Positions 155 to 35,674 of a DNA stretch of 35,674 nucleotides are shown in pieces. Position numbers and translations under genes: made by a program. Position 1 is the first letter of the stretch. Each line of letters starts with the position of its first letter. The notes under the pieces were generated by a model. The model was not told the DNA's origin. It did not search any database and was given only the letters and a program-made list of their open reading frames with translations. Location of the stretch: the NCBI GenBank assembly GCA_030691635.1, contig JAUYEF010000427.1:1-35674 (forward strand), in the 5' to 3' direction. Origin of the DNA: Bacillota bacterium (GTDB lineage Bacteria > Bacillota > Sulfobacillia > JAUYEF01).

Positions 155-1227
155 TGCTGGTCACCACCCTTCACGGCCTGCATGAGATGCAGGAGCTTCT
201 TCCTTGTGTCCGCGCGTGACGGCACAATCCCGCCCGCGACCCCGTAGAAGTGGACCGGCGCTTTGCATTCCACCGCGAGTTTCGCGTCGTCCACCATCTG
301 GCCCATGCTCATTTCCACCACGAGCATGCCCTTGACGCGACCCGCAAGGTCTCCGAGCGGGGCTTTCGGGAACGGCCACAGCGAGATCGGCCTGAACACT
401 CCGACCCTGTAGCCTTCGGGCCTGATCTGGTCCACCACCGACTTGCAGATGCGGGCAGTCGTGCCGTACGCCACGAACACCCATTCCGCGTCTTCCGTCA
501 GATACTCCTCATACCGGACTTCATTCTCTGCGATACGGGCGTATTTCGCCTGCAACTTCAGGTTGTGCCGGTATAGATCATCGGGATCGAGCATGAGCGT
601 GTTAATGATCCTGGGCTCGCGCCCTTTCGCGCCGTCCGTGACGCAGTCCTTCTCGACCGGCGCCGGGCCTGGGTACTCCGGGAAAACCACGGGCTCCATC
701 ATCTGGCCGAGCACACCATCGCCGAGCAACATCACAGGGTTCCGGTATTTCTCCGCCAGGTCGAACGCTTGCATCATGAGGTTGGCGGCTTCCTGCACAG
801 TGCCCGGCCCCAGCACTATCAGCCGGTAGTCGCCGTGCCCGCCGCCTCTCGTGGCCTGGAAGTAGTCCGACTGCGCCGGCTGGATCCCACCGAGGCCCGG
901 GCCGCCACGAACCATGTTCACGATCACACAAGGGAGCTCGGCCGCGGCGATATACGAGATGCCTTCCTGCTTCAGGCTGATGCCGGGACTGGACGACGAC
1001 GTCATGACGCGTCCTCCGGCGCCGGATGCCCCATAGACCATATTGATCGCGGCAACTTCGCTTTCGGCCTGCAAGAACACGCCGCCCACCTCAGGCAGCC
1101 GCCAGGACATGTACTCAGGTATCTCGTTCTGCGGAGTTATCGGGTAGCCGAAGAAGTACCGGCACCCCCCGCGAATGGCGGCTTCGGCTATCGCCTCATT
1201 TCCCTTCATCAAGACCGGTTCCACCAT
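151..1227 (-). CDS. vorB: 2-oxoacid:ferredoxin oxidoreductase alpha subunit, VorB-like (3-methyl-2-oxobutanoate type)
   Basis: [40 protein letters not shown]...[17 protein letters not shown] is the typical VorB/KorA alpha-subunit N-terminus; followed by the beta subunit and preceded by a ferredoxin. Confidence 0.85.
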
Positions 1228-1229
1228 AT

Positions 1230-1457
1230 CTAGCCCTCCTTCTTGGCCGGCGCTTCACGGTAGACCTCGATCACAGTATCCGGGCAGACACGCGCGCAAA
1301 GCGTGCAGCCGGTGCACTTATCCATCTCAGTCACGGTAGCCGGCCGGAACCCCCGCGCGTTCATCCGGGAGGCCATGAAGATGATCTTTCGCGGGCAGAC
1401 AGCTACACAGAGTTCGCACCCCTTGCACCTGTCCTCGGAAAACACGACCTTCGGCAC
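1230..1457 (-). CDS. 4Fe-4S dicluster ferredoxin subunit of 2-oxoacid oxidoreductase
   Basis: 75 aa with two CxxCxxCxxxCP motifs (CKGCELCVAVCP, CTGCTLCARVCP), immediately upstream of vorB. Confidence 0.88.
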   Translation of the reverse strand: MPKVVFSEDRCKGCELCVAVCPRKIIFMASRMNARGFRPATVTEMDKCTGCTLCARVCPDTVIEVYREAPAKKEG

Positions 1458-1508
1458 CAGAGAACACCTCTTTTTGGGTATGTCGGGATCGAAAACGCAC
1501 GACGCTGC

Positions 1509-2624
1509 CTAGCCGGGCGACCTCTCGTATACCTGCGGTTCGTCTTCTCCTTCGAGCACTCTGATGGCGCCCTCGGCCAGCGCCAGGAGCTCGTCTTCGC
1601 CTGGATACAGCACCACGGTTCCATACTTGGAAACGCGTTTCTCGATCGCCTCGCATATCGTGCTGCAACGGGCGAGGCCGCCTGTCAGCACGATGGCGTC
1701 GACCTTTCCGCCGAGGACTGCCAGCCCCCGGCCTATCTCCTTGGCCACCTGGTAGCTCAGCACATCAAGCAACAGCGCCGATTTCGGGTCCGACAAAGCC
1801 CGCTGCTCGACCACCCTGCAGTCGTTCGTGCCCAGGTGCGCCACGAAGCCGCCCTCGCCGACGACACGACGCTCCATGTCAGCCAGGCTGAACTTGCCAG
1901 AAAAACAGAGTTCCACAAGCTGGGTCGCCGGCAGCACGCCGGAACGTTCCGGGCTCATCGGGCCGTCACCGTCCAGACCGTTGTTCACATCGACCACGCG
2001 TCCATACTTGTGGACTCCCACCGTGATGCCCCCGCCCATGTGCGCCACCACCAGCCGCGTCTCCTGGTACTTCTTTCCCAGTCCTGCGGCGACTTTACGG
2101 GCGACGGCTTTCTGGTTGAGCGCGTGGAAGACGCTCCTTCGCTCGATATCGGGCATCCCGGAGAGGCGCGACAAGTCCTCCAGTTCGTCGACGACCACTG
2201 GGTCGACGACGATCGGAGGAATCCGCGGCGAGAACATGTCTGCACAGGCCTTCGCCATGAAGGCCCCGAGGTTCGAGGCGTGAACGCCGTACCTCGAACT
2301 CCTGAGGTCTTGGAGCATGTCTTCGCTAACCGCATACGCGCCGCTCTTCAGCGGGTGGAGAAGGCCCCCTCTTCCCACCGCCGCGTCTATCCACGTTTCG
2401 CCCTTGATGAACTCCCTGACGCTCCTCATACGCACCGGTAGTTGATCTATCAGGGCACGCCCTTTGAACTCCTCGACGTAATGGTGGAGAGACGTGCTCT
2501 TGAGGAGATCCCTTCCGCTGTAGAGCGCGACCTTTGTGGACGTGGAACCCGGGTTCAATGCAAGGATCCGCCACTTCTGCGGACCCGCCAAGCGGGCACT
2601 CGATACCAAATCGTCTCCCCCCAA
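1509..2624 (-). CDS. buk: butyrate kinase (second copy); true start may be a TTG at about 2609 behind GGGGGGAG
   Basis: ILALNPGSTSTKVALY, VVAHMGGGITVGVHKYGRVVDVNNGLDGDGPMSPERSG: acetate/butyrate kinase family (ASKHA) motifs. Confidence 0.9.
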   Translation of the reverse strand: MGGDDLVSSARLAGPQKWRILALNPGSTSTKVALYSGRDLLKSTSLHHYVEEFKGRALIDQLPVRMRSVREFIKGETWIDAAVGRGGLLHPLKSGAYAVSEDMLQDLRSSRYGVHASNLGAFMAKACADMFSPRIPPIVVDPVVVDELEDLSRLSGMPDIERRSVFHALNQKAVARKVAAGLGKKYQETRLVVAHMGGGITVGVHKYGRVVDVNNGLDGDGPMSPERSGVLPATQLVELCFSGKFSLADMERRVVGEGGFVAHLGTNDCRVVEQRALSDPKSALLLDVLSYQVAKEIGRGLAVLGGKVDAIVLTGGLARCSTICEAIEKRVSKYGTVVLYPGEDELLALAEGAIRVLEGEDEPQVYERSPG

Positions 2625-2637
2625 CGAGAGATTTGGC

Positions 2638-3537
2638 CTACATGACCAGTCGAGCCAGGGCTATCGAGAGCAGTTTGGCTCTTGCGTGGTCTGCGCGCGA
2701 CACGAGGATGATCGGCACTTTCGCTCCCACGACGATGCCTGCCCACGAAGCGCCTGCGATATACTGGAGCCCTTTCAGCAGGATATTGCCTGTCTCTATG
2801 TTCGGCACTATCAGCACATCGGCGTCGCCTTCCACAGCGCTCTTTATCTTCTTGTGTTCGAGCGCTTCCTTAGACACGGCGATGTCCATTGCCAGCGGGC
2901 CGTCAACGATGCCGCCCTTGATCTGGCCTCTCTCCGCCGCCTTCGTCACGAGAGCGGCGTCCGTGCTCGACGGCATGTCCGGGTTGACGAGTTCCTGGGC
3001 GGAAAGCATCGCGACTTTCGGCTCTTTCACACCCATCGCGATGGCCACGTTGATGGCGTTCTGGGTGATGTCAAGTTTCATCTTGAGATCCGGAGCGATG
3101 TTGAGACCGCCGTCGCTGACCACGAGCAGCTTGTGGTATGCCGAGTGCTCAACCACCGCCACATGGGTCAGCATATTGCCTGTCCTCAGGCCCTGTTCCT
3201 TGTCGAGCACCGCCCGTAGCAAGTCGGCGGTCCCGATGTAACCCTTCATCAGGATGTCGCCCTCGCCCTCCCGGATCAGCGCGACGGCCTGCCTCGCGGC
3301 CTCACCGTGGCTGGCCGCATGCACGATCCGGTGCCTGGATGAGTCGAGCCCGAGCGAACCCGCCGCCTTCTCGATGATAGCCCGGTCTCCAACGAGCACG
3401 CCCGTGGAGACGATACCCAGCTGGGTGGCTTTTTCCACTGCTTCGATCACATCTGGATCTCCGGCCGCGGCGACAACCACCCTGGCCGGTTGGCGTTTTC
3501 TTGCTTCTTCTAGTAGCGCGTCAAAATCGCGCATCAC
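2638..3537 (-). CDS. ptb: phosphate butyryltransferase
   Basis: 299 aa, Ptb/Pta-type: VVVAAAGDPDVIEAVEKATQLGIVSTGVLVGD...DILMKGYIGTADLLRAVLDKEQGLRTG; sits between two butyrate kinases. Confidence 0.9.
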   Translation of the reverse strand: MMRDFDALLEEARKRQPARVVVAAAGDPDVIEAVEKATQLGIVSTGVLVGDRAIIEKAAGSLGLDSSRHRIVHAASHGEAARQAVALIREGEGDILMKGYIGTADLLRAVLDKEQGLRTGNMLTHVAVVEHSAYHKLLVVSDGGLNIAPDLKMKLDITQNAINVAIAMGVKEPKVAMLSAQELVNPDMPSSTDAALVTKAAERGQIKGGIVDGPLAMDIAVSKEALEHKKIKSAVEGDADVLIVPNIETGNILLKGLQYIAGASWAGIVVGAKVPIILVSRADHARAKLLSIALARLVM

Positions 3538-3550
3538 TCCACCCCACCTT

Positions 3551-4624
3551 CTAGTACTCTTTGGGACTTTCTTCTCCCCTCAGGACCCTCAAGACACCTT
3601 CAGCAAGCGAAGCCATCTCATCGCCGCCTGGATAGATGAGAACGGGCGCTATGTAGCTGACCATCGCTTTCAGCGCATCTGTGACCCTGGAAGAGTAGCT
3701 GGCGCCGCCGGATATTATGACAGCATCGACATCCCCGCAGAGCACGGTGGCCATGGCACCGATCTCCTTGCCCGTCTGGTAGATCATCGCCTCAAAGACG
3801 AGCCGGGCCCTATCGTCGCCTCTGTCAACACGTGCCAGCATCTCACGCACGTCCTTTGTGCCCAGGTGGGCGTACATCCCCCCCTCCGAAGTTATTCTCT
3901 TGATCAGTTGCTCCCTGGTATACTTGCCGGAGAAACACAACCTCACCAGGTCGCCGGCCGGTAGGCTCCCTGTTCTCTCCGTCGAGAACGGCCCTTCTTC
4001 GTTTGCGTTGTTTACGTCTATGATCCGGCCCTTCCTGATAGGGCATACCGAAGTCCCGCTCCCAAGGTGGACGACGACCAGGTTCGCGTCATCGAACGCA
4101 ACGCCGAGGTCCCTGCACGCAAGCCTTGCCACCGCCCGGACATTCAGGGCATGGAGAAAACTCTTTCTCTCCAGGTCAGGCAGGCCGGTGACCCGCGCAA
4201 CCGGGCAGAACTCATCGACCGACACAGGATCGACGATGTAGGCCGGCACGTCCCATTTCGACGCGAGCTCGAAGGCGATGATGGCCCCAAGGTTCGACGC
4301 GTGTTCCCCGCGTTTCGCCTCCTGAAGGTCTTGCACCATGCTCGCCGTCACACGGTAGGTCCCCGCGTCGACAGGCCGGAGCAGCCCTCCCCTCGCCGCT
4401 ATCGCCGAAAAGCGCGTGCCTTTGGCAGGAGATGCTCCGAGCTCAGATTCGATTGCGGTGAGCCTGACGGGAAACTGTTCGCTGATCCTCCTGAAGCGGG
4501 CTAGTTCGTGAGTCGGGTGCACGATGTTGGATTCCCAGGTCATCTTGTCGTCTTCGAAAAGCGCCAGCTTCGTGCTGGTCGAACCCGGGTTCAATGCGAG
4601 GATTCGAGAAGGCAACACACACAC
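3551..4624 (-). CDS. buk: butyrate kinase (first copy); likely start TTG at 4615 (GGAGG-8 nt-TTG)
   Basis: ILALNPGSTSTKLALFEDD, VVHLGSGTSVCPIRKGRIIDVNNANEEGPFSTERTG. Confidence 0.9.
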   Translation of the reverse strand: MCVLPSRILALNPGSTSTKLALFEDDKMTWESNIVHPTHELARFRRISEQFPVRLTAIESELGASPAKGTRFSAIAARGGLLRPVDAGTYRVTASMVQDLQEAKRGEHASNLGAIIAFELASKWDVPAYIVDPVSVDEFCPVARVTGLPDLERKSFLHALNVRAVARLACRDLGVAFDDANLVVVHLGSGTSVCPIRKGRIIDVNNANEEGPFSTERTGSLPAGDLVRLCFSGKYTREQLIKRITSEGGMYAHLGTKDVREMLARVDRGDDRARLVFEAMIYQTGKEIGAMATVLCGDVDAVIISGGASYSSRVTDALKAMVSYIAPVLIYPGGDEMASLAEGVLRVLRGEESPKEY

Positions 4625-4919: not shown

Positions 4920-5684
4920 TCAGGACTTCATCCCCATCCGGAGCCTGTCGGCGATCATCGCGATGAACTCGGAATTCGTCGGCTTTCCACGGTCCTGGCT
5001 CACGGTGTGGCCGAATATCGAGTTGATCAGGTCAAGGTTGCCCCTGTTCCAGGCCACCTCTATCGCATGCCTGATGGCGCGCTCGACTCTGGACGGTGTG
5101 GTCTTGTACTTGCCGGCTATGCTCGGGTAGAGTTCTTTGGTTATGGCGCTCAGAAGCTCGACCCTTGAGACCACCATCACTATGGCGTCACGGAGGTAAT
5201 GATACCCTTTGATGTGGGCGGGGATCCCGATTTCGTGGATGATGCCGGTGACTTCCACATCCATGGTCTTGGGCTTGGGCGCAGCCTGCGGCCGGGTCAT
5301 CTCCTGACCGTTGCCCACCATTTGCCGGACCCGGCTGGTGAGCACTTCGAGGTCGAAAGGCTTGAGAACGTAGTAGTCTGCGCCCATCTGGATGACTTTT
5401 TGGGTCACTTTCTCCTGACCGAACGCGGTGAGCATGACGATTTTCGGCCTTTTCTTCAAGTCCATCTGCGAAAGCCGCTCCAGGACGCCGATCCCGTCAA
5501 GATGAGGCATTATGATGTCAAGAATGACGACATCTGGCTCCGAGCGCATGATGAAGTCGATGGCCTCCAAACCGTTGTGTGCCACCGCCACGACTTCCAT
5601 GTCCTCCTGCCCGTCGAAATACTCCCTCAGGAGCTCGCAGAATTCGCGGTTGTCATCTGCAACCATGACACGGGTCCGAGCCAA
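4920..5684 (-). CDS. spo0A: sporulation master response regulator Spo0A (TTG start, AAAGGAGG RBS)
   Basis: Receiver domain [61 protein letters not shown] plus the Spo0A C-terminal domain ([46 protein letters not shown]). Confidence 0.97.
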
Positions 5685-5755
5685 TTATGGTGCCTCCTTT
5701 TCCGTAAATTACCATATTGGGGGCTTCTCGTCGTTCTCTTGAGTTTCCTTTTGAC

Positions 5756-7162
5756 CTATCCCGAAAAATTTTCCCCACAGTTCGTCAAAACAAGACGCTG
5801 GGCGCCAATTGCGCGCCCAGCGCTCTTGCTGGCTCGTGGCCAGATTCCGGTTGTCTCCACCATCCACTCAGCGAAGACCCCGAAGCCTCTTGTCGGATCG
5901 TTCACCAGGACATGGGTTATGGCTCCAACCACTTTACCGCCCTGGACTATCGGACTCCCGCTCATCCCCTGGATTATCCCGCCTGTCCGGCTGAGCAGCC
6001 GCTGGTCGACGATCTTTATGACCATGCCTTTGCTCTGTGGCCTGCTCTGGTAGGACACCTTCTGTATGATAACGTCGAACATCTCAAGACGCTGCCCTTC
6101 CACCACCGTTACCATCGAGGCGGGCCCCTCGACCACTTCACTCGCCAATGCCATGGGAAGCGGCTGGTCATAGGCTGGGTTCTTCAATTCATGGTAGAGC
6201 GTGCCGCCTATTCCGAATTCCGTGTTTGCGTCGATCGAGCCTATCACATCGCTCTCCTGGACAAACACGCCCAGCTTCTCCCCTGGCTTCCCCTTCTTCC
6301 CCTCTTCTATTCCCGTGACTTGGGCTCGCACTATTCGCCCATTGTAGACCGAGACCGGAGTCCCCGTTTCACCATCGGTGATTATGTGCCCTAGGGCTGC
6401 AAAGCGGTGAGTCTCATTGTCGAAAAATGTCAGTGTACCCACCCCAGCCGCTCCGTCACGCACATAGAGTCCGATGCGGTACCTCTTGGTCTCGCGACAC
6501 AGCACGGGCTTGACCGGCCTTGTGAAAACAGCCTTCCCGCGCTTTATGTCCAGCACCGCATGCCTACCCTGGCGCCCTGCTTCGTCTAAGGCTTGTGCAA
6601 GAGCTTCTTCGCTGTGGATGCTCTGTCCGTCAACTTTCGTGATCACATCCCCCGGCAGCACTCCGGCAGTCCGGGCAGGAGACCAGCTATTGCCTGCGTC
6701 GTCCTGCACCAGAGATGTGCGAGTCACGATCACGCCGTCGGCCTGGAGCAGCACACCTATCGAGTGCCCGCCAAGAGACAACATCAGCCGGGGAACGACT
6801 TCGACCGTTATCTTCCTCACCGGGATTCGCCCGAAGAGCTTGAACTCGACCGTGACCTTGCCTTCGGCCAGAGCTCTGAGGCTTACCGGTGCCCCGTAGA
6901 AGGCGTTCGTTCCGACCTTTGCCGGCTCGATGGAGAGCACCCGGTTCTCGCCAGCTCTTGCGGTAACGAACGGCAGACCAGGATGGAGTTCTCTCGTTTG
7001 CGACTCTGATAGCCTTACCTGTGCAGGGAACTGGAGGAAACTGATCAAGGGGCGGCTCCAAATTACGGAGGCGATTACCAGGATTAGGATGAGCGTGCGT
7101 CTCCTCGACCGTCTCAACAGACCGCCACAGTCTTCTGGCTGTCCTGCACGGCGGTGCATCAC
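5756..7162 (-). CDS. spoIVB: SpoIVB peptidase (PDZ plus S55 peptidase)
   Basis: GHIITDGETGTPVSVYNGRIVRA...TGGIIQGMSGSPIVQGGKVVGAITHVLVNDPTRGFGVFAEWM: S55 catalytic region; adjacent to spo0A as in most spore formers. GTG start. Confidence 0.95.
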   Translation of the reverse strand: MMHRRAGQPEDCGGLLRRSRRRTLILILVIASVIWSRPLISFLQFPAQVRLSESQTRELHPGLPFVTARAGENRVLSIEPAKVGTNAFYGAPVSLRALAEGKVTVEFKLFGRIPVRKITVEVVPRLMLSLGGHSIGVLLQADGVIVTRTSLVQDDAGNSWSPARTAGVLPGDVITKVDGQSIHSEEALAQALDEAGRQGRHAVLDIKRGKAVFTRPVKPVLCRETKRYRIGLYVRDGAAGVGTLTFFDNETHRFAALGHIITDGETGTPVSVYNGRIVRAQVTGIEEGKKGKPGEKLGVFVQESDVIGSIDANTEFGIGGTLYHELKNPAYDQPLPMALASEVVEGPASMVTVVEGQRLEMFDVIIQKVSYQSRPQSKGMVIKIVDQRLLSRTGGIIQGMSGSPIVQGGKVVGAITHVLVNDPTRGFGVFAEWMVETTGIWPRASKSAGRAIGAQRLVLTNCGENFSG

Positions 7163-20323: not shown

Positions 20324-20851
20324 TCACCGCCGGGCGATGATCCGCATAGCTTCGGGCTTGATCCCTATGAGCCGCGTGACCACATCGGAAATCTTCGCGA
20401 CATCCAGTTGCGTGATCTCTTGCGCGCGGATGACGATGACCAGCGCGCCGTTTCCCATGAACACGACGGCGTCTTCGTATCCTCTGGCCTTAACAAGATG
20501 CTCGACCTCCGATTCCTTCGCGGCCTCTTGCGTCAGGGAGAGCAGGCGCTGTGCTGCCTCCTTCTTGACCTGGGCGTCAGTGTTTGGGCTGGCGGCGATT
20601 TCCCGCAATCGCTCGAGCTCCTGGCTCCTCTGCCGTTCTCGTTCGACTTTCGAGTCCGCGAAGTAGTCCGACTCCGGCACGCGGAGCGCCTTGCTCGCCG
20701 CCTCGCCTGCGGGCGATGGGGGCGCGACCACAGGACCCTTCAGGAACTCAGCTCTCTTGTATGCCACAAACCAGATGAGGTACGCGACGATGGCCGCGAA
20801 CAGCAGGATGCCCAGAAGCCGGGACCGCCTGAGGTTATACGTCCGGAACAT
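20324..20851 (-). CDS. spoIIIAH: SpoIIIAH-like protein (SpoIIQ-partner ring component)
   Basis: N-terminal TM plus conserved C-terminal domain: EAAQRLLSLTQEAAKESEVEHLVKARGYEDAVVFMGNGALVIVIRAQEITQLDVAKISDVVTRLIG; last gene of the spoIIIA operon. Confidence 0.92.
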   Translation of the reverse strand: MFRTYNLRRSRLLGILLFAAIVAYLIWFVAYKRAEFLKGPVVAPPSPAGEAASKALRVPESDYFADSKVERERQRSQELERLREIAASPNTDAQVKKEAAQRLLSLTQEAAKESEVEHLVKARGYEDAVVFMGNGALVIVIRAQEITQLDVAKISDVVTRLIGIKPEAMRIIARR

Positions 20852-20854
20852 GTC

Positions 20855-21436
20855 TCATTCACCCGCTTTCATAGGAAGCACCGAAACTCTATGCGCCGGC
20901 ACATTGAAGAGCACCTGGATCGCCCTGAAGATCTCCGCCCGGACACGCGGGTCCTGCGCGCCGCTCGAAACGACCAGCACGCCTTCCACTTTGGGCGACG
21001 TGGTCCTGGTGACGACCGGCCGGTCGCCCGTGGTGGTCTGCCGTGCGATGACGGGTTGCGAGGAGTCGGTCTGTTCCTCAGTAACCCGGGTCATGCCCGA
21101 CTGGTCCTTTTCCTCGGTCCTGCGTGTGTTGAGCTGCCGGTTGCCCGCCAGCACGTTCTCCGGCGTGCCCGCAAGCGTGAGGGAGACCACCACGCGGCCG
21201 GAACCCCGTATCTGCCCGATCACTCGCTCTGCCTCTTGGGCAAGCTTCGCCTGGTACCAGGTCAGCGAGAGGGTCTCGTCCGGCACCGGCGCCTCCTTCG
21301 CCTGGCCCTGCGCAGGCGCCGGGCTGGGCGCGCTTCTCTCCGCAGACATCATGCTCCCGACCAGCAACAGAATGATTCCGAGAGCGCCAAGAGCCAACAG
21401 GTTAAACGGAGCCTTCTTGAGTCGCTCGATCCACAA
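20855..21436 (-). CDS. spoIIIAG: stage III sporulation protein AG
   Basis: N-terminal TM; LAQEAERVIGQIRGSGRVVVSLTLAGTPENVLAGNRQ...PKVEGVLVVSSGAQDPRVRAEIFRAIQVLFNVPAHRVSVLPM. Confidence 0.93.
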   Translation of the reverse strand: MWIERLKKAPFNLLALGALGIILLLVGSMMSAERSAPSPAPAQGQAKEAPVPDETLSLTWYQAKLAQEAERVIGQIRGSGRVVVSLTLAGTPENVLAGNRQLNTRRTEEKDQSGMTRVTEEQTDSSQPVIARQTTTGDRPVVTRTTSPKVEGVLVVSSGAQDPRVRAEIFRAIQVLFNVPAHRVSVLPMKAGE

Positions 21437-21448
21437 CCGCCATCACTC

Positions 21449-21955
21449 CTATCCTGCAATGGTCACCGTAACATCTTCAGGCCTCAGGTTCAGGTACGCG
21501 GACAGCAGGGCCTTTAGCGCTTCCGCCATCGCGCCTCCGCTACGGGCCTTCCCAGGGTCAAGCCAAAGATGGACCTCCAGCCGCTGCACTGATGCTGTGT
21601 CGCGTGCTGTGGCCACCGTCACGCGGCAGTCAGCCGCCCTGACGCCCTCGATCGACATGGCCATCGTCTCAGCCTGCCACTTCACCCTCGCGGCAAACGT
21701 TTCATCGCCGGGCGTCTGCCCTGAAAAGGCGGGCGCCGCAGTGCCGAATGGCGGCAGGATGGCAGGGTCTGCGCCGCCGCGCACGCGCTGCACGATTCCC
21801 ACCACCGGCTGGAGCACAAGAGAGACGATGATCATCCCGAGCGCCACGCGGACATATTTCCGCGTGCTGCCCTGCGGAGTCACGGCCTCGGCGATGCCGG
21901 CGATCAGTGAGGTGAGGGCGAGTGTCATCACCCAACCACGCAGCCAGGGGACCAA
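21449..21955 (-). CDS. spoIIIAF: stage III sporulation protein AF (TTG start at 21955)
   Basis: LVPWLRGWVMTLALTSLIAGIAEAVTPQGSTRKYVRVALGMIIVSLVLQPV; GGAGG RBS 7 nt before the TTG; operon position. Confidence 0.85.
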   Translation of the reverse strand: MVPWLRGWVMTLALTSLIAGIAEAVTPQGSTRKYVRVALGMIIVSLVLQPVVGIVQRVRGGADPAILPPFGTAAPAFSGQTPGDETFAARVKWQAETMAMSIEGVRAADCRVTVATARDTASVQRLEVHLWLDPGKARSGGAMAEALKALLSAYLNLRPEDVTVTIAG

Positions 21956-22014
21956 GCGATCGCCTCCACTATAGACTCTCGGGTCCTCTGCAGGGGCTCG
22001 ACGCCCCGGCGCTT

Positions 22015-23181
22015 TCAATAAGGTCTGGACGCGCCGGCGATGACGGCCAGGCTCACCCAGACCATCATGGCCACGACTCCGAGCGCGACGCACATCATGA
22101 TCAGCGAGCTCCCGATGCCGTTCAGGCAGGAGCTCATCCGTTTCGCTCCGAGCGGCTGGACGAGCGCGGCTACCAGCCGGTATACGAACACCAGAGATGC
22201 GATTTTCGCCAAAGGGAACACGATCAAGAAGAAGACGACCAGCGCTCCGGCGGCGCTGACTGCGCCCTTGAGCACGTTCGATGACGAGAAAACCATCTCG
22301 GCCGCGTCCGAGAACATTCTCCCCACGACGGGTATGAACGTGGTGCTAAGAAACTTGGCGGTCCTGATGGCGGCGCCGTCGGACACGGCCCCGGCGGCCT
22401 TCTGGACCGCCATCATCCCCAAGAACAGCGCGAGTGACAGCCCTAGCACCGTATTCGCGACCAGTCTTATGAGTCCGGTGACGCCCGAAAGGTCGAACGC
22501 GTCCCACGTGTGGTTCACGATCTCGAGCACGGCCGCCAGTACGATGACCGGCAGCACGACCTCGCTCGCCATCGTGGCGACGACGTGGACCGTGGAAATC
22601 GTGATCGGGCTCAACAGGCCCGCGGTGACCGGAGCGCCCGAACTCGCCACCAGGGCGATCAGTGCCGGTAGGAGGGGACGCATGAGCGACAGCAGGTCGG
22701 AACAGGCCTTCTGGGACACCTTGAGCGCCACGCCGAAACTGGAGAGCGCAAGCGTAATGAGGACCAGGTGGCACGTCGCGTAGGCCACCCGCGCCACAGC
22801 ATCACTGTTGAACCCCACCTGCAGGTTCTGGAGCAGCGCAGAGATGACTGCCAGCACGATCAAGGACCCGAGCAGCTTTGTGTTGAGCCGTAGCTCGGAG
22901 AACAAGTAGCGGGCGACCAAGCTAAGGAGGTAAGGCCCGTCCAGCTTCGACCTTCCGGAAATCACATCCGTGAAGACCTGGCGCAGGTCGATCCCGCTGC
23001 CGGCAGGCTGGTCGAGACCAGATAGCATATCGTCTATCTGGCGGTAGTCCGCGGGGAGAGGGGCAGGCAGCTGCATCTCCGGCACAGAGGCGAGACATGG
23101 AGCGGCCAGCGACAGCACGCAGGTAGCGACAAGCCACAACACAGACGCGCGACTGTTCTTCACCCACCGGCACCCCCTCAC
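22015..23181 (-). CDS. spoIIIAE: stage III sporulation protein AE
   Basis: 388 aa multi-TM; operon position; ATGA overlap with spoIIIAD. Confidence 0.93.
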   Translation of the reverse strand: MRGCRWVKNSRASVLWLVATCVLSLAAPCLASVPEMQLPAPLPADYRQIDDMLSGLDQPAGSGIDLRQVFTDVISGRSKLDGPYLLSLVARYLFSELRLNTKLLGSLIVLAVISALLQNLQVGFNSDAVARVAYATCHLVLITLALSSFGVALKVSQKACSDLLSLMRPLLPALIALVASSGAPVTAGLLSPITISTVHVVATMASEVVLPVIVLAAVLEIVNHTWDAFDLSGVTGLIRLVANTVLGLSLALFLGMMAVQKAAGAVSDGAAIRTAKFLSTTFIPVVGRMFSDAAEMVFSSSNVLKGAVSAAGALVVFFLIVFPLAKIASLVFVYRLVAALVQPLGAKRMSSCLNGIGSSLIMMCVALGVVAMMVWVSLAVIAGASRPY

Positions 23182-23564
23182 GCCATGATAGTAAGCACTG
23201 CCTGCATGATGGCTCTCACGACCGGAACAGTGAGCAACAGGACCAGCACCTTGCCGGCAAACTCCACCCGCGCGCCCAGGGCCCCTTCGTCAGCGTCCCT
23301 GCAGACCTGCGCACCGAACTCGGCCAGGTACGCCACGCCGATCACCTTGATCACGGTGGTCAGGTACGAGATATCCAGCCGCGCCAGGGACGACAGGTCC
23401 TCCAGGAGCACGAAGACCGCCACGAGCTTGTCCGCCACCAGCAGGAAGAGGAGCGTTCCCGCCGCCAAGGCGACAGGCGTCGCGAAGTCGGGCCTGGCCC
23501 GGCGAATGAGTGTCAGCACCACAGCGCTGACCAGCGCTATCCCGATGATCTGGAGAATGTCCAC
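23178..23564 (-). CDS. spoIIIAD: stage III sporulation protein AD
   Basis: MDILQIIGIALVSAVVLTLIRRARPDFATPVALAAGTLLFLLV..YLTTVIKVIGVAYLAEFGAQVCRDADEGALGARVEFAGKVLVLLLTVPVVRAIMQAVLTI. Confidence 0.95.
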   Translation of the reverse strand: MDILQIIGIALVSAVVLTLIRRARPDFATPVALAAGTLLFLLVADKLVAVFVLLEDLSSLARLDISYLTTVIKVIGVAYLAEFGAQVCRDADEGALGARVEFAGKVLVLLLTVPVVRAIMQAVLTIMA

Positions 23565-23585
23565 CGCGCCGTCCTCCAGGATGGG

Positions 23586-23792
23586 TTAGTAGAGCCGGAA
23601 GATGGTCTTGACTTTCTCGAACAGGTCGCCCACCAGCTGGATCACCCACATGAGCACAATGACGATTCCTGTCAGCGTCAGCATCCAGGCATACTCTTCC
23701 TTGTTCGCCTGCTTCAAGACGCTGTGGATGACGGCGACGAGTATGGCCACGCCCGCTATCTTGAAGACCATGTCAAGGCTGACTGTACTCAC
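23586..23792 (-). CDS. spoIIIAC: stage III sporulation protein AC
   Basis: 68 aa, two TM segments: MVFKIAGVAILVAVIHSVLKQANKEEYAWMLTLTGIVIVLMWVIQLVGDLFEKVKTIFRLY. Confidence 0.95.
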   Translation of the reverse strand: MSTVSLDMVFKIAGVAILVAVIHSVLKQANKEEYAWMLTLTGIVIVLMWVIQLVGDLFEKVKTIFRLY

Positions 23793-23843
23793 GGTTTTGC
23801 CCTCCGCTACGTGGGTTCCGGTCTATGGCGCAGTCTCCCCGCA

Positions 23844-24377
23844 TCAGACGAGTATCAGCGCCACAAGCGCCCCGCAGAGCAGGCCCATTTGCCTGTAGAG
23901 AAGCGCGTACTTGGCGCTCCTGTCCCTCGCCTCGCCGATATGAACGCCGAGTTTGCCTATCATCGCCGCAAGGTGCCTGGCCTGATCCTTCCGGTCAGAG
24001 ACGCCCAGAGCCGGCCCGAGAAGACGCAGCGCGTCGATGTCGGCCCTGTCCACCAGCAGCAGGCCGCCCAGCGAGTCCAGTGCGCTCGCCCATGCTTTCC
24101 CCGCAGAATCCCCGTCGCCGGAGCGCAGGTTCTGGGAAACACGCTCCAGGAAGGCCCTCGGAGCGCCCGAACATGGCCGCGCCGCCTCATCGAGCGCGGC
24201 AGCCAGGGTGGCCGACTGGTACTCCACCAGCGTTATCAGCCGTTCGAGCGCCGCCCGCAGTTCCTCCAGCACCCGGAGCCTTTTCTCAAGCCTGCCCGCC
24301 GCAAAGGACCCACACAGCACGCCCGAGGCGATGACAAGCCCGGCGCCGGTGAATCTGATGACTGCCGCCATGCTCAT
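23844..24377 (-). CDS. spoIIIAB: stage III sporulation protein AB
   Basis: MSMAAVIRFTGAGLVIASGVLCGSFAAGRLEKRLRVLEELRAALERLITLVEYQSATLAAALDEAA; start ATG at 24377 overlaps the spoIIIAA stop (ATGA). Confidence 0.92.
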   Translation of the reverse strand: MSMAAVIRFTGAGLVIASGVLCGSFAAGRLEKRLRVLEELRAALERLITLVEYQSATLAAALDEAARPCSGAPRAFLERVSQNLRSGDGDSAGKAWASALDSLGGLLLVDRADIDALRLLGPALGVSDRKDQARHLAAMIGKLGVHIGEARDRSAKYALLYRQMGLLCGALVALILV

Positions 24378-25354
24378 AATGCGCCCCCCAGCGGGCCACG
24401 CAGCAGTGTGACGCCGCGGCCATCGCAGACTTCCTCGACGGTCCCGGGCCCGCGCCTGCAGCTGAGCAGGATGATCCGCGAGAACGTGCTGGAGGACACC
24501 AGCCGCTGCAGAGAAGGCCTGTTCGCGAGGTCCTTCTTGCCTGCGCCGTGGGCCGAAGCGATGACGGCGACACCGGCGCAAGAAGCTTCGACGCACGCCT
24601 GCGCATCTTCGGCTGTGCCTATCTCGTCCGTGACGACAACATCGGGGGTCATGGCCCGGATGAGCATCATCATGCCCTCCGCCTTAGGGCAGGCGTCGAG
24701 GACATCCGTCCGTGGGCCGACATCGTTCTGGGGCACGCCCCGGTAGCAGCCTGCGATCTCAGACCGCTCATCAGCTATGCCCACATTCTGCGGCGCGACG
24801 CCACGGGCCGGGATGCCGCCGCTCAACAGCCTGGAGATCTCCCGGAGCATCGTGGTCTTGCCGGACCCCGGAGGGCCGACTATGAGTGAACTGGCCGGAC
24901 GCGAGTTATCGATCATGTGGGGAATCACAAGGTCGGCCGCGCCGGGGCAGTCGCGAGTGACCCTGATGTTGAAGCTCCGCACGTGTTTAATGGTCTTCAC
25001 CTTGCCCGCTTCAACGACTGCCTTGCCTGCCATGCCGATCCGGTGTCCGCCCTTTACGGTGATGTACCCGTTGCGGAGCTCTTCCTCGAAGGCATGCACG
25101 GAGTTCGCAGACACCATGTTGAACATCCTGGTCACGTCCTCGGCGTCGACCACGTGAGGCGCTCCATTTCCGACCAGGACCTCGCGCTGGTCCATCAGCA
25201 GGACACACGGCAGCCCGGTCCTGACCCTGATCTCGGACAGCCTCTCAAGCGCAGCGTCCGGATAGGCGGATAGCGTTCCCGCAACTTGCCGCCTCAGCTT
25301 CTCTGGGAAGAAGACCAGAAGTTCCTCTTCGATTCTTGTAAGCGCTCCTGGCAG
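24374..25354 (-). CDS. spoIIIAA: stage III sporulation protein AA (ATPase); N-terminus extends beyond the ORF-track ATG, candidate CTG start at 25354
   Basis: Walker A IVGPPGSGKTTMLREISRLLSG. In-frame upstream translation LPGALTRIEEELLVFFPEKLRRQVAGTLSAYPDAALERLSEIRVRTGLPCVLLM resembles the SpoIIIAA N-terminus. GGGGGGAG lies 7 nt upstream of the CTG; no ATG/GTG/TTG occurs in frame before the TGA. Confidence 0.88.
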   Translation of the reverse strand: MPGALTRIEEELLVFFPEKLRRQVAGTLSAYPDAALERLSEIRVRTGLPCVLLMDQREVLVGNGAPHVVDAEDVTRMFNMVSANSVHAFEEELRNGYITVKGGHRIGMAGKAVVEAGKVKTIKHVRSFNIRVTRDCPGAADLVIPHMIDNSRPASSLIVGPPGSGKTTMLREISRLLSGGIPARGVAPQNVGIADERSEIAGCYRGVPQNDVGPRTDVLDACPKAEGMMMLIRAMTPDVVVTDEIGTAEDAQACVEASCAGVAVIASAHGAGKKDLANRPSLQRLVSSSTFSRIILLSCRRGPGTVEEVCDGRGVTLLRGPLGGAL

Positions 25355-27818: not shown

Positions 27819-27921
27819 ATCAGCCCCCGGATCCTGGCTTTCGCGCCATTACCAATAGTAACACACGGTAGTGGCGTCTTGCCATAGAAAGCCCGGATGC
27901 GGCCAATCTCCAGTAGCCTGC

Positions 27922-28089
27922 CTACTTGCGTTCCGGAGGAACCACCCCAAGCGGGACCCTCGTGATGATCACCTGACCGCCGACTGCGGACATCCTGACG
28001 AGACCCTGCCCTTCGATGCCGATGCGCACCAGCGCTTCTCTCGGGATCGACACAGTTCCACCCATGGAAACTATGGCCTTCAGGCTCAA
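27922..28089 (-). CDS. small AbrB/SpoVT-type (swapped-hairpin) protein, 55 aa, TTG start; absent from the supplied ORF track
   Basis: Translation MSLKAIVSMGGTVSIPREALVRIGIEGQGLVRMSAVGGQVIITRVPLGVVPPERK*, with the AbrB-like 'G.V.IP...L...GI..G..V......G.VII' pattern; GGGGAGGAG RBS just upstream of TTG-TTG. Confidence 0.65.
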   Translation of the reverse strand: MSLKAIVSMGGTVSIPREALVRIGIEGQGLVRMSAVGGQVIITRVPLGVVPPERK

Positions 28090-28126
28090 CAAGGACTCCT
28101 CCCCGGTAGTGGCTGTCTGATTCTAG

Positions 28127-28141
28127 CACCACCGGGTGGTG
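28127..28141. repeat. inverted repeat CACCAC-CGG-GTGGTG upstream of the AbrB-like ORF
   Basis: Perfect 6-bp arms with a 3-nt spacer, between a TTGACA (28153-28148) and a TAGAAT (28125-28120) on the minus strand. Confidence 0.5.
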
Positions 28142-28206
28142 GCGATTTGTCAAAACGTGCGTCGTCGGACAAGCAGTTTTATATTGAAAGTCGAATCGTG
28201 TCTGGC

Positions 28207-28231
28207 GGCCCCCGGAGCACCGGCGGGGGCC
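28207..28231 (-). repeat. GC-rich hairpin downstream of glyA (possible terminator/attenuator without a U-tract)
   Basis: GGCCCCCG-N9-CGGGGGCC, 8-bp perfect arms. Confidence 0.45.
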
Positions 28232-28266
28232 TAACGTAGCCGCGCTGCTTACTGCTCCAACCAGCG

Positions 28267-29508
28267 CTACTGGTAGATCGGGAACGCGCACGCGAGCGCT
28301 ATGGCCTTCTCGCGGACGGCCGCGAGCGCTGCCTCATCCTTGCGGCCGGCGACGGTGTCCGCGATGAGCTCAGCTATCCTGGCCATCTCCGGCTCTTTCA
28401 TACCGCGGCTGGTCACCGCCGGAGTGCCGACCCTGATGCCGCTCGTCGTGTTGGGTGGCTTGGAGTCAAACGGGATGGCGTTCTTGTTCACCGTGATGTG
28501 CACCGTATCCAGGACCTGCTCCACCGTCCTGCCGGTGACTCCCTTGGGCGTGAGGTCCACCAGCATCAGGTGGTTGTCTGTGCCGCCTGACACCAGCCGG
28601 AAGCCCTGATTCACCAGAGCGTCCGCCAGCGCTGCAGCGTTCTTGATGATCTGCTGCTGGTACGCCTTGAAGCCCGGCTCCATGGTCTCTTTGAACGCTA
28701 CGGCCTTGGCCGCGATGATGTGCATCAGCGGCCCACCCTGGATGCCCGGGAAGACGGCCTTGTCTATGGCCTTGGCGAACTCGGCCTTGCACAGGATGAG
28801 CCCGCCTCTCGGCCCCCGCAGCGTCTTATGCGTGGTGGTCGTCACGAAGTGCGCGTAGGGCACCGGCGACGGGTGCAGCCCGGCGGCAACCAGGCCCGCG
28901 ATGTGGGCCATGTCCACCATGAGATATGCGCCGACCTCATCGGCGACTTCGCGGAAGAACTTGAAGTCGATTATCCTGGAGTAGGCGCTGGCCCCGGCGA
29001 CGATCATCTTCGGCTTCGACTCCAGCGCGAGCCGCCTGAGCTCGGCATAGTCGATGCGCTCGTCGTTCTGGCTCACGCCGTAGGGCACGATCTTGAAGTA
29101 CTTGCCCGAGATGTTCACGGGACTGCCGTGAGTCAGGTGGCCGCCATGGGCAAGGTTCATACCCAGTATGGTGTCGCCTGGCTCCAGCATCGCGAAGTAC
29201 ACGGCAGTGTTCGCCTGGGCTCCCGCGTGAGGCTGGACGTTTGCGTGCTCTGCCCCGAAAATCGCCTTAGCACGCTCGATCGCGAGCGTCTCAGCGATGT
29301 CCACCTTCTCGCAGCCACCGTAGTAACGGCGCCCGGGGTAACCCTCAGCGTACTTGTTTGTCAGCACTGTGCCGGCCGCCTCAAGCACGGCGTCGGATAC
29401 TATGTTCTCCGAGGCAATGAGCTCGATCACCGACTGCTGCCGCTCGAGTTCCTGCATGACCGCGGAGTAGATTTCTGGATCCACCCTCTTCACATTCTCA
29501 AGGTGCAC
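28267..29508 (-). CDS. glyA: serine hydroxymethyltransferase
   Basis: 413 aa: [47 protein letters not shown]...[19 protein letters not shown]. Confidence 0.98.
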
Positions 29509-29534: not shown

Positions 29535-30935
29535 CTACCTCATCCTGGCCAGGTGAATCGGTTGTCCCCCGATCCCGTGGGACGCCTCCATGATCGCCTC
29601 CGGCAATGTCGGGTGCGCGTGGACCATGTCCGCCAAGTCTTTGGCCGTAGCTTTCATCTTCAGAGCCACAGCTCCTTCATGGATCAGATCATCCGCGTGG
29701 GGGCCCATGATGTGCATCCCAAGCAGCCTGCCGTCACGCTCGTCCGCAACTATCTTGACCACGCCCTCCGTCTCACCCATGGCCACTGCCCGGCCGTTGG
29801 CCGTGAACGGGAACTTCGATACCTTCACGGCAATGCCGGCCTCCCTCGCTTCCGCTTCCTTCAGCCCGACGCTGGCGACCTCTGGGATCGAGAACACGCA
29901 GCCGGGAACGACTGAGTAGTCCATCTCGGCATCGTGGCCGAAGATGTTCTCCATGGCGACGATACCTTCGGCCGAGGCCACGGGGGCGAGGTAATACTTG
30001 CCGACCACGTCCCCGATCGCATAGATGCCCGGCACGCTGGTCCTCATCCTGGAGTCCGTCTTGATCCCCTTCCGGTCGTACTGGACACCGAGCCCGTCCA
30101 GGTCGATCCCACCGAAGTCCGGCACCATGCCCATGGCCACCAGGACCACTTCAGCCTTGTACTGGACCTTCTTGCCCTCCTTGTCGTCGCAGCGGACAAG
30201 TCTCTGCCCGTCCTCCGTCTCGACAATCTCCTTGATGTACATGCCGGAGTTGACCGAAATCCCCTTGCGCTTGAGCACGACCATCAGCCTGCGCGCGATC
30301 TCCTCATCTATGGGAGGCAGGATCACGGGCGAGCGCTTGATGATGTCCACCTTCGTGCCCCACGCGTTGTAGATGCAGGCAAACTCGACGCCGAGCACGC
30401 CGCCTCCTATGACGAGCATGGTCTTGGGCACGGATTCGAGTTCCAGAGCATCGTCGCTCGAGATGGTCAGGGCAAGGCTTTCCTTGGGAACGGGCGGCTG
30501 TTGCTGAGATGCGCCGGTGGCGAGGATCACGTTCTTTGTTTCCAGCTCCAAAGTCGTGCCGTCGTCACGTTTGACCACGACCCTACCCGGTTCGGGAACG
30601 CTGCCCCATCCTTTGATGAGTTCTACCTTGTTGCTTGAGAACAGGCGCTCGACGCCCGTGACGAGCTGCTCGACCACCTTCCTCTTCCGTGCCATCGCGA
30701 CCCCGAGGTCGAAGGACACTTCGCCCACGTTCGTCCCGAACTCCGCGGCGCGTGTCGCCGTGAGGTAAACCTCGGCGCTGCGCACAAGGGCTTTGGTAGG
30801 GATGCAGCCCCTGTTCAGGCAGCAGCCGCCGAGCCTTCCGCCCTCCACGACCGCCACCTTGCCGCCGAGCTGCGCGCCCTTAATCGCGGCGACGTAGCCG
30901 CCCGGCCCTGAACCTACAACCACGACATCGTACAT
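29535..30935 (-). CDS. lpdA: dihydrolipoyl dehydrogenase
   Basis: [56 protein letters not shown]... (GGxCLNxGCIPTK redox motif); C-terminal [13 protein letters not shown]. Confidence 0.97.
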
Positions 30936-30947
30936 TCCGCCTACCCC

Positions 30948-31769
30948 CTACCTCTTCTGGTTCCACCCAGCATCTGCGTATTTTTTGCGCAGGAGCCGCT
31001 CTGCCGAGTCCCGCTCGCGGGCACTCAATTCCTGCTCCACGAATTCTATGTCAAGGCACCTGGAGAGTCCTTCCCTGAGCGCCGCGCACACTTCCGCGAA
31101 CTCGGGGCGGCGTTGCAGGAATTCCGAAAGCCCTCCGGCCTTCTTGGCCAGTGTTGAGTCAAGCCTGTTCCTTGCGGCATCGGATTTCAGCGTAAGCACG
31201 GACGTCAGACGCGCCGGCAGAAACGTGATGGGAATCGAGCCATGCTGCAGGATTGTGCCCATCTTCCTCGTCTGGGCGCTTCCGATGACCTTCTTCCCCT
31301 GGCAGACAACTTCATACCAGGAAGGCGAGTCGAAGCAGGCCGCCGATGAGTGCTCGCGCGGGTCGTGCCCCGCCTCCTGGGCAGCAACCATTCCTGCCTC
31401 CATGCCGAGAGCCCTGAGGCCTTCGACAAGGCCGGTGCTTATCCGCCTGTATGTCTCGACGACACTGCCTGGGAACTCGGCCTCTCGCACGATGATGCCG
31501 TACGTGACTTCATCGTCGTGGAGCACTGTCCTGCCGCCCGTGGGACGCCTGACCAGGTCGTAGCCGGCCTCAGCGACCCTTCCCAGGTCGATCTCACGCT
31601 CCAGCCGCTGGAAGTAGCCGATCGAGATTGTGGGCGGGTCCCAGGCGTAGAACCTGAGAGTGGGTGGCGACGCCCCTTCGGACACCGAGAACATGATGGC
31701 CTCGTCTATGGCCATGTTCGAAGCGCCCCGGTGAGGAGCGTCATAAATGACTCGCCATCTTGCGGTCAT
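30948..31769 (-). CDS. lipM: lipoate/octanoate-protein ligase family, LipM-like octanoyltransferase
   Basis: RRPTGGRTVLHDDEVTYGI and AACFDSPSWYEVVCQGKKVIGSAQTRKMGTILQHGSIPI (LipM-like region including a candidate catalytic Cys). ATGA overlap with the upstream radical SAM gene. Confidence 0.8.
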   Translation of the reverse strand: MTARWRVIYDAPHRGASNMAIDEAIMFSVSEGASPPTLRFYAWDPPTISIGYFQRLEREIDLGRVAEAGYDLVRRPTGGRTVLHDDEVTYGIIVREAEFPGSVVETYRRISTGLVEGLRALGMEAGMVAAQEAGHDPREHSSAACFDSPSWYEVVCQGKKVIGSAQTRKMGTILQHGSIPITFLPARLTSVLTLKSDAARNRLDSTLAKKAGGLSEFLQRRPEFAEVCAALREGLSRCLDIEFVEQELSARERDSAERLLRKKYADAGWNQKR

Positions 31770-32746
31770 GAGTCGTCGTCCTCCGCAGCGCTGGTGTCAA
31801 ACCACGAAAGCGCCTGGCCTATCGCCTCTTCGATCTCTGACGGCTGCAACGGCCTTGGATAATTATACACAAGGCCGCCCGGCCGTTCATTGTAGTAAGG
31901 CCTGTTGCAGTCCGAGCAGCCGCTCGTCTGGAAGGCGCGCCCGTCCGAAAGGCGTTCTCTGAGCAGCCCATCCTCGATGCCGAACGACACGAGACGGCCG
32001 TTCACAAACTTCATGTTTTCCGCCTGCGCAAGCCCTTCCACGACAAGCCACCTGGCTGCCTGGATGGCCCTGTACCTGGGCAGGGGCGGAGGCTTTTCGT
32101 GTTCCAGCGGCGTTCCCTTGACCGGCGTGAACGAGAACAGCCCTACCACGACCTGGAGGTCATGCATCGTCTGGAACATCTGAATCAGGGCCTCATCTGT
32201 CTCGCCAAGCCCGGCTATCAGGTGCGTGCCCATGCGCCCTGGGTAGTCGCGCGCGGCCGCTCTGATCAGCGCCAGCGCCGCGCTCCAGCCGGGCCCCTTG
32301 CAGCGCGCGTAAACCTCTTCGCTCGCGGCGTCCAGCGGGACGGACACCCGGTCCGCGCCCGCTTCGAACATGGCGCGGACGACCTGTTCACCACCACTCA
32401 CCGACACACACAACGGGATGTCGCAGCAGGCTTTGACCGCGTGGACGATCGCCTGTGTCCGGGCCACAAAGCCCGGCGACATGACCACCTGGATGCAGGC
32501 ACGTTTGATCAAGCCTTCGCGGTACGCCTCAGCTATGGCGCAGGCGGCCTCCTCGACAGGGAAATCGGGCCAGGTCACCCGCGAGAGCAGGTCTGCGCGG
32601 CTCGAACTGGCCGTCCCCTGCGCACAGAACGCGCAGGCCCGCGAGCATTTCGTGCCACACATCAAGTAAGCGGTCGTGGGGGCGGCGTCGAGCTTCGACC
32701 GTTTCAGTCCGAGCACAGCCGCGCTGCCCGCGGATACACGGATCAA
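31766..32746 (-). CDS. radical SAM protein, proposed LipS2-like lipoyl synthase component (TTG start overlapping the upstream stop as TTGA)
   Basis: MIRVSAGSAAVLGLKRSKLDAAPTTAYLMCGTKCSRACAFCAQG.. (CX3CX2C), ..SGCSDCNRPYYNERPGGLVYNYPRPL. The ORF-track extension to 32899 runs into the upstream gene. Confidence 0.7.
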   Translation of the reverse strand: MIRVSAGSAAVLGLKRSKLDAAPTTAYLMCGTKCSRACAFCAQGTASSSRADLLSRVTWPDFPVEEAACAIAEAYREGLIKRACIQVVMSPGFVARTQAIVHAVKACCDIPLCVSVSGGEQVVRAMFEAGADRVSVPLDAASEEVYARCKGPGWSAALALIRAAARDYPGRMGTHLIAGLGETDEALIQMFQTMHDLQVVVGLFSFTPVKGTPLEHEKPPPLPRYRAIQAARWLVVEGLAQAENMKFVNGRLVSFGIEDGLLRERLSDGRAFQTSGCSDCNRPYYNERPGGLVYNYPRPLQPSEIEEAIGQALSWFDTSAAEDDDS

Positions 32747-33603
32747 AGCACGCAGCACTCCTCTCCCCGCCGGGCCACGAGCCCGAGGTAACGCGCCAGC
32801 CTCCTGGCCTGTGGTGCGGGGTTCACGATGGTGTTCACGCCAGCACGAACGGCAAGAAGATCGAGCGTGCGCCTGTAGCGACCGCCGGGTCTCATGCACC
32901 CCAGCTGGATGGGCGTCTCAGGGAAATCAAGCCGTGCCTCAGCCAGGATCTCAGCCACAGCCGCAGGGGCCGGGGGCTCCACCCCCGCGAACCGGGTGCC
33001 CGGCGTCGGGATCAGCACCAGGAAGACCAGCGCGGGCGCGCCCAGCTGCTTGAGGATCCCGAGGGCGCGGCGCTCGCCGCTGATCGCGCCTCCCCTCAAC
33101 CCGATGCAGATGTGGGGCACCACCCGGGCGTGCCTGCAGAGTGCCTCATAGGACCGGACATAGTCGGCCACCGTCTTGTCGAGGCCGTACACTTCACGGA
33201 TCGTCTCGTCGTCTCCGACGAAATCGAAGGAGACGGCTCCAGCCATCTTCCCTGCGGAAGCCGCCTCCTCTTCACTGACAAGGCCAACATGGAGATTCAG
33301 CCGGCACGTCTTTGCCAGTTCCTCAAGTTGCTGAGCGTGGCTGCCGAACGGCACGACGCCTACCGGGCTGCACCCGCCGCTGATGAGGAGGCTCTTTGCC
33401 CTGCCCTGCAGGACCCAGGCTCGAGCCTCCTCAAGCGATATCATGTTGTCCAGGTAGTGCCCTCCGCAGTGCGCGCAGTTCAGGCCGCATTCCGTGCCTG
33501 TCAGCGACACCGCCGCCGTCCGCGCCGGGTAGGCGAAGGTTATGTCATGCCCAAACGAGCGCACCCTCGCCTCCCACGCCGAAGACAGCAAGTCATGCAG
33601 CAC
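32743..33603 (-). CDS. radical SAM protein, proposed LipS1-like lipoyl synthase component (GTG start overlapping the gcvPB stop, TAGTG)
   Basis: MLHDLLSSAWEARVRSFGHDITFAYPARTAAVSLTGTECGLNCAHCGGHYLDNMISLEEA (CX3CX2C); QLGCMRPGGRYRRTLDLLAVRAGVNTIVNPA. Confidence 0.7.
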   Translation of the reverse strand: MLHDLLSSAWEARVRSFGHDITFAYPARTAAVSLTGTECGLNCAHCGGHYLDNMISLEEARAWVLQGRAKSLLISGGCSPVGVVPFGSHAQQLEELAKTCRLNLHVGLVSEEEAASAGKMAGAVSFDFVGDDETIREVYGLDKTVADYVRSYEALCRHARVVPHICIGLRGGAISGERRALGILKQLGAPALVFLVLIPTPGTRFAGVEPPAPAAVAEILAEARLDFPETPIQLGCMRPGGRYRRTLDLLAVRAGVNTIVNPAPQARRLARYLGLVARRGEECCVL

Positions 33604-35063
33604 TACGCTTCCCTTCTCCACCTTGGGTTGAACTTCCGGACCGCGCCGGCTTCGTCAAGGCGGCCCACCACAGTGTCGTGAGGCGCCGTCTTGGCGATCT
33701 CCGGGTTCTCGTATGCTTCCTTCGCTATCGAGTTGAGTGCGTTGATGAAATAGTCGAGCGACTCCTTGGACTCAGTCTCGGTGGGCTCGATCATAAGCGC
33801 CTCATGCACGATGAGCGGGAAGTAGACCGTCGGCGGGTGAACGCCGTGGTCCAGAAGCCTCTTGGCGATGTCGAGCGTCCTCACGCCCGTTTCCTTCATG
33901 ATCCTGAACGGCGCCGCCACGAACTCGTGCTTGCAGTGCCTGTTGTACGGCAGGTCGTAGTACGCCAGGATGTTCCGCATGATGTAGTTGGCGTTCAGCA
34001 CCGCGTCCTCGCTGGCCTTCTTCAGCCCGTCCGGACCGAGCGCCCTGACATACGTGTATGCCTTCACCACCACGCCGAAGTTCCCGTAGTACCCCTTGAC
34101 CTTCCCGATCGAGTCGGGGTGGTTGTAGTTCAGGAAGTATTTCTTGCCGTCATAGTCGACAGTGGGCACCGGCAGGAACGGCACCAGGTGCTCAACGACG
34201 CCGACAGGCCCAGAGCCCGGTCCGCCGCCGCCATGGGGCGTGGAGAACGTCTTGTGCAGGTTGAAGTGCACCACGTCAAAACCGGCATCCGCGGGCCTCG
34301 ACCAGCCCATGATGGCGTTGGCGTTGGCGCCGTCGTAGTACAGAAGCCCGCCCTTCGCGTGCACGATCTCGGCGATCTTGTGGATGTTCTCATCGAAGAG
34401 CCCAAGCGTGTTCGGGTTCGTGAGCATCAGAGCAGCCACGTCCTCGCTCATGACCTTTGTCAGGTCTTCGAGGTCGACGCCGCCTCGCTCGTCGGACTTC
34501 ACGTTTACTATGTCGAAACCGGCCATGACGCTCGACGCCGGGTTCGTGCCATGAGCTGAGTCGGGGATGATCACCTTCGTGCGCTTCTGGCCGTTCTTCT
34601 TTTGGTAGGCCTTGATGATGAGGAGACCTGTGTACTCCCCATGCGCGCCGGCAGCGGGCTGCAGGCTGACGCGGCTTACTCCGCCTATCTCCGCCAGGTA
34701 CTGCTCCATCTCATACATCAGCTGCAAGATGCCCTGCGAAGCCTTCTCCGGCTGGTACGGGTGAGCGTACGCGAAGCCCGGGAGCCTCGATACCTGCTCA
34801 TTGACCTTCGGGCTGTACTTCATCGTGCACGAGCCGAGTGGGTAGAACCCGATATCCACACCGTGATTGAGCTGGCTGAGCTTGGTGTAGTGGCGGACGA
34901 TGTCCACCTCTCCGACCTCAGGGAGGTCGGGCGGGACCGCGCGAAGCTCGCCCTTGGGCACGAGGTTCTCGACCGGCACATCGGGAACGTCGAGAGCCGG
35001 AAGCGAGTAGCCCTTCCGTCCGGGGGAGCTCAGTTCAAATATCAGAGGCTGTACCTTTTTCAT
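33603..35063 (-). CDS. gcvPB: aminomethyl-transferring glycine dehydrogenase subunit GcvPB
   Basis: 486 aa: [50 protein letters not shown]...[19 protein letters not shown]...[23 protein letters not shown]. Confidence 0.98.
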
Positions 35064-35674
35064 TGAACTCCCTCCAGTACCGAGGCAAGCTCGTCGATTT
35101 CCTGCTTGCTCCTCTTCTCAGTCACAGCAAAGCTCAGGTGATTCGCAAGTTCCGGGTACCAGTGCCCGACATCGAGCGCTCCCAGGATGTTGTGCTTCAA
35201 CAGCTCATCCTGGACCTTGCACGGGCAGACGGCGCCCTTCACGGTGAACTCCTTGAAGAACGGAGCGTCGAACGCCAGCTGAAACTTCCCTGTGGCCTCT
35301 ATCCTCTTTGCTGCGTAGTGCGCCTTCTTCACACACAGCTCGGCGACTTCCCTGATGCCCTGCTTGCCGAGCGTGGTCAGGTAGACGCCCGCGGCGAGCG
35401 CGTTCAGGGCTTCATTCGAACAGATGTTGGACGTCGCTTTCTCGCGCCTGATGTGCTGCTCTCGCGTCTGGAGAGTCAGCACGAAGCCACGCTGGCCCCT
35501 GTTGTCCACGGTCGCGCCGACGATCCTTCCCGCCATGCGCCGCGCCATCTTCTCCCTGGTCGCGAAGAACCCCAGGTGAGGACCACCGTAGCTCATCGGG
35601 TTACCCAGCGCCTGGCCCTCGCCCATGACGATGTCCGCGCCGTAGTTCCCCGGAGCTTCGAGCAGGCCCAGCGA
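35060..35674 (-). CDS. gcvPA: aminomethyl-transferring glycine dehydrogenase subunit GcvPA, partial (runs off the window)
   Basis: [103 protein letters not shown] overlap with gcvPB. Confidence 0.97.

Follow-up and report, generated by a model that had tools for sequence, protein, structure and literature searches.

The question raised by this locus is what two adjacent radical SAM genes do inside a glycine cleavage (gcv) operon. It lies on a 35,674-nucleotide contig of a Bacillota bacterium (JAUYEF010000427.1, assembly GCA_030691635.1), which was analysed whole and is called the window here. An earlier note on this DNA had proposed a lipoyl synthase of the LipS1/LipS2 type, distinct from LipA. 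The two consecutive short open reading frames on which it built were verified on the minus strand, with their positions, lengths and CX3CX2C motifs (Table 1). In LipS1 the motif was CGLNCAHC, at residues 39–46 (C39, C43 and C46), and in LipS2 it was CSRACAFC, at residues 34–41 (C34, C38 and C41). An in-frame GTG further 5', at 33621, is a possible alternative start for lipS1. The stop/start overlaps from gcvPB through lipS1 and lipS2 to the lipM-like gene were also real: TAGTG for gcvPB/lipS1, TTGA for lipS1/lipS2, where the TTG start of lipS2 overlaps the lipS1 stop, and ATGA for lipS2/lipM, where the ATG start of the lipM-like gene overlaps the lipS2 stop.

Table 1 Operon genes in the window, and related reading frames from the same genome and from relatives.
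Feature	Location	Strand	Details
gcvPA, glycine dehydrogenase subunit 1	35060..35674	-	C-terminal 204 aa, truncated where the contig stops; NF001696 290 bits
gcvPB, glycine dehydrogenase subunit 2	33603..35063	-	486 aa; NF003346 757 bits
lipS1, predicted radical SAM lipoyl synthase subunit 1	32743..33603	-	286 aa; GTG start; NF053742 and ligands
lipS2, predicted radical SAM lipoyl synthase subunit 2	31766..32746	-	326 aa; TTG start; NF053743 and ligands
lipM-like octanoyltransferase (predicted)	30948..31769	-	273 aa; ATG start; PF21948 129 bits
lpd, dihydrolipoyl dehydrogenase (L protein)	29535..30935	-	466 aa; TIGR01350 521 bits, cut-off 409
glyA, serine hydroxymethyltransferase (SHMT)	28267..29508	-	413 aa; PF00464 581 bits
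2-oxoacid dehydrogenase E2 (own genome, contig C26)	L081:908-2074	+	lipoyl and E3-binding domains
LipS1-LipS2 single frame (relative)	L066:974-3169	+	
LipS1-LipS2 single frame (relative)	L068:7860-10079	+	
LipS1-LipS2 single frame (relative)	L079:7914-10085	+	
LipS1-LipS2 single frame (relative)	L097:280-2499	-	

Pfam alone was uninformative, matching LipS1 to Radical_SAM only at E 0.013. Among solved structures there was no useful relative for LipS1, and LipS2 had only weak BioB and LipA matches. The identity of both proteins was settled by the NCBIfam equivalog models together with ligand conservation. LipS1 reached 284.1 bits with NF053742 (curated cut-off 230) over model positions 1–268 of 268, and LipS2 349.3 bits with NF053743 (curated cut-off 270) over positions 1–292 of 292. 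With the LipA model TIGR00510 (cut-off 310), LipS2 scored 20.5 bits and LipS1 had no match; with the BioB model TIGR00433 (cut-off 225), LipS1 scored 16 bits. The comparison suggested in the earlier note thus placed the pair above both LipS cut-offs and far below those of BioB and LipA. The residues that set the LipS enzymes apart pointed the same way. By mutagenesis, the auxiliary-cluster ligands of the Thermococcus kodakarensis enzymes are H159, C230, C276 and C277 in LipS1, and C85, H178, C276 and C279 in LipS2 (PMC9585515). Their counterparts here, assigned by residue order and similar spacing, were H164, C236, C283 and C284 in LipS1, and C84, H175, C277 and C280 in LipS2. When 94 LipS1 and 79 LipS2 sequences were aligned, conservation of these ligands and of the three radical SAM cysteines was 99–100%. 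In a maximum-likelihood tree, the window LipS1 and LipS2 each fell inside their own fully supported group, both groups including archaeal members and standing apart from LipA and BioB. The other sequences in the tree were LipA, BioB and four BioB-like sequences (matches of the BioB model) of the same class, with HydE, HydG and ThiH not named among them.

These results bear on whether the two proteins could instead be biotin synthase-like or other radical SAM proteins unrelated to lipoate, merely carried in a gcv operon. A weak BioB match of LipS2 (47 bits, cut-off 225) speaks for this, as does the former annotation of the family as biotin synthase (PMC9585515). However, both proteins pass the LipS1/LipS2 equivalog cut-offs and keep all LipS-specific ligands, their linkage to gcv, lipM and lpd is conserved, and the tree sets BioB and BioB-like sequences apart from them, so that a role outside lipoate synthesis is very improbable. 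Biotin synthase as an identity for the pair was rejected on the BioB model scores and the tree. A second alternative concerns the ligase-fold neighbour, and would leave the role of LipS1/LipS2 unchanged: it could be an LplA-type lipoate/octanoate ligase, the pathway then salvaging free octanoate instead of drawing on octanoyl-ACP. Its best NCBIfam match was the LplA large subunit (122 bits, under the cut-off) and its best PDB match was LplA (2ars), while none of the LipM equivalog models matched it; PF21948 did, and Cys145 was conserved. Against a ligase stand the lack of an LplB gene next to it within the window, and a cysteine-bearing insert that is missing from LplA-type homologues. LipM is expected to have a catalytic cysteine, and Cys145 with its insert matches this. 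The residue sits within the insert ACFDSPSWYE; the Bacillota homologues examined share both, and the LplA-type homologues from Chloroflexota and archaea have neither. Cys145 and its insert fit a LipM over an LplA, and we consider the ligase unlikely. The lipM-like protein was the only one of the LplA/LipB/LipM fold found in a genome-wide search.

The earlier note had named a canonical lipA gene as evidence that would count against its reading. No match to lipA was obtained in the window's genome, an assembly of 3.84 Mb in 451 contigs with a completeness of 96.8% and a contamination of 5.3%, by a search that did match in 12 of the 14 control genomes. Since the assembly is fragmented and partly contaminated, this absence is strong, short of absolute, evidence. 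We extended the comparison to the class, as genome searches at the order level gave only the window's own genome. With thresholds of our own choosing (208 bits for LipS1, 197 bits for LipS2), 34 of 61 genomes of the class carried both LipS1 and LipS2 and 29 carried LipA, seven having both systems and five neither. LipA was absent from 27 of the pair-bearing genomes, and the two systems were anticorrelated (Fisher p 2e-6, in a statistic that ignores kinship among genomes). In this Bacillota class, the LipS1/LipS2 pair largely replaces LipA, the two-protein enzyme being its usual replacement.

The gcv setting was borne out for gcvPB, for part of gcvPA (NF001696 model positions 244–445 of 447) and for the LipM-like neighbour. 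The operon is only partly visible, gcvH and gcvT not being found in the genome assembly. This is likely due to an assembly gap, because the window contig ends within gcvPA and relatives carry gcvH immediately upstream of that gene. In 26 of the 28 relatives with both gcvH and lipS1 on one contig, the two were 2.3–3.3 kb apart. From these relatives we infer GcvH to be the substrate of the pair. The genome also encoded a 2-oxoacid dehydrogenase E2, adjoining an E1-beta-like open reading frame, on another contig that matches the window contig in G+C content (0.617 vs 0.619). This E2 is a possible second lipoylation target. No LipL-like protein was found in the genome.

Family models, ligands, tree, missing lipA, LipM-like partner and operon agree with one another, and by this sequence evidence the reading of the pair as a non-LipA, LipS1/LipS2-type lipoyl synthase holds up. 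Very probably, lipS1 and lipS2 code for the two proteins of a radical SAM lipoyl synthase, which acts in maturing the glycine cleavage system's lipoyl carrier. In the proposed pathway, the LipM-like transferase would move octanoyl from a carrier protein to the lipoyl lysine of GcvH, with both the carrier-protein donor and GcvH inferred. LipS2 would then insert sulfur into C8, spending its auxiliary [4Fe-4S] cluster, and LipS1 would follow with sulfur into C6, likewise spending its auxiliary [4Fe-4S] cluster, to give lipoyl-GcvH. The order, LipS2 at C8 and then LipS1, is taken from the T. kodakarensis enzymes (PMC9585515). Lipoyl-GcvH would be used by GcvPA/PB and GcvT, and its dihydrolipoyl arm reoxidised by Lpd.

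We found 80 LipS1 loci in public genomes. Most of the Bacillota ones had the order gcvPA-gcvPB-lipS1-lipS2-lipM-lpd, which recurred in dozens of Bacillota. The gene glyA occupied the same position also in the loci of Candidatus Fermentithermobacillaceae and in locus L062. In this family, lipS1 and lipS2 formed one open frame of 724–740 codons from stop to stop (Table 1), with L097 looking identical in sequence to L068. Both LipS equivalog cut-offs were passed by the two fused frames tested. The linker of about 65 residues was less conserved than the domains and had little third-position excess. The fused frame is possibly a natural single-chain, two-step lipoyl synthase; the portions of PMC9585515 and PMC10332631 consulted held no mention of a single-frame LipS1-LipS2 fusion. 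As a tentative idea, somewhat doubtful at present, LipM and LipS1/LipS2 might in this lineage be the sole route for lipoylating both GcvH and a 2-oxoacid dehydrogenase E2 without a LipL amidotransferase, with the two halves merged into a single-chain enzyme in the Fermentithermobacillaceae.

Elsewhere in the window, between glyA and a pepP-like peptidase gene (about 27820–28266) there was no clear long conserved frame; a short frame in this gap resembles an AbrB/SpoVT-type regulator (VSMGGTVSIPREALVRIGIEG...). Judged by eye, a phosphate butyryltransferase-like gene at 151–4624 has a butyrate kinase-like gene on either side, next to a 2-oxoacid:ferredoxin oxidoreductase subunit, an arrangement resembling acid metabolism of the branched-chain or butyrate type. 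Sporulation genes were also noted by eye at 4920–7162 and 20324–25195, namely a Spo0A-like regulator, a SpoIVB-like protease and a SpoIIIA-type cluster, which fits a spore-forming member of the Bacillota with high G+C content (62%).

The locus forms a compact operon, tying a predicted LipS1/LipS2 synthase to the glycine cleavage system and to what is probably a transferase, not a ligase. Annotation readily mistakes LipS genes for biotin synthase or unspecified radical SAM genes, and genomes may therefore be miscalled as lipoate auxotrophs. The earlier note had considered such a pair unusual in a bacterium. The pair stands, its rarity does not: bacterial LipS1/LipS2 has been proved genetically and biochemically (PMC10332631), NCBIfam models exist and the pair is common in the class. 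With bacterial examples published in 2022–2023 and already in NCBIfam, the window pair is a further example and not a new system. LipM together with LipS1/LipS2 is reported from other phyla, and lipS1/lipS2 linked to canonical genes from Sporomusa (PMC10332631).

As in Bacillus subtilis, GcvH would first be octanoylated by a LipM-type enzyme, with sulfur then inserted into the protein-bound octanoyl group. B. subtilis LipA is a single chain with a CX4CX5C auxiliary motif, and LipA was not found in the window's genome. The T. kodakarensis system (TK2109/TK2248) likewise has two radical SAM proteins, and shares with the window pair the radical SAM motif and the auxiliary-cluster Cys/His set (PMC9585515). 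In the window, by contrast, the two genes are adjacent, overlapping and part of a gcv operon, and a LipM-like transferase replaces the LplA/LplB of the archaeon (PMC9585515). The bacterial sLpl(AB)-LipS1/LipS2 pathway shares the LipS1/LipS2 lipoyl synthase for GcvH-like proteins; there, the ligase sLpl(AB) attaches octanoate to LbpA, which belongs to the sHdr system, and lipT often occurs as well (PMC10332631). The window instead combines a LipM-like transferase with the glycine cleavage system.
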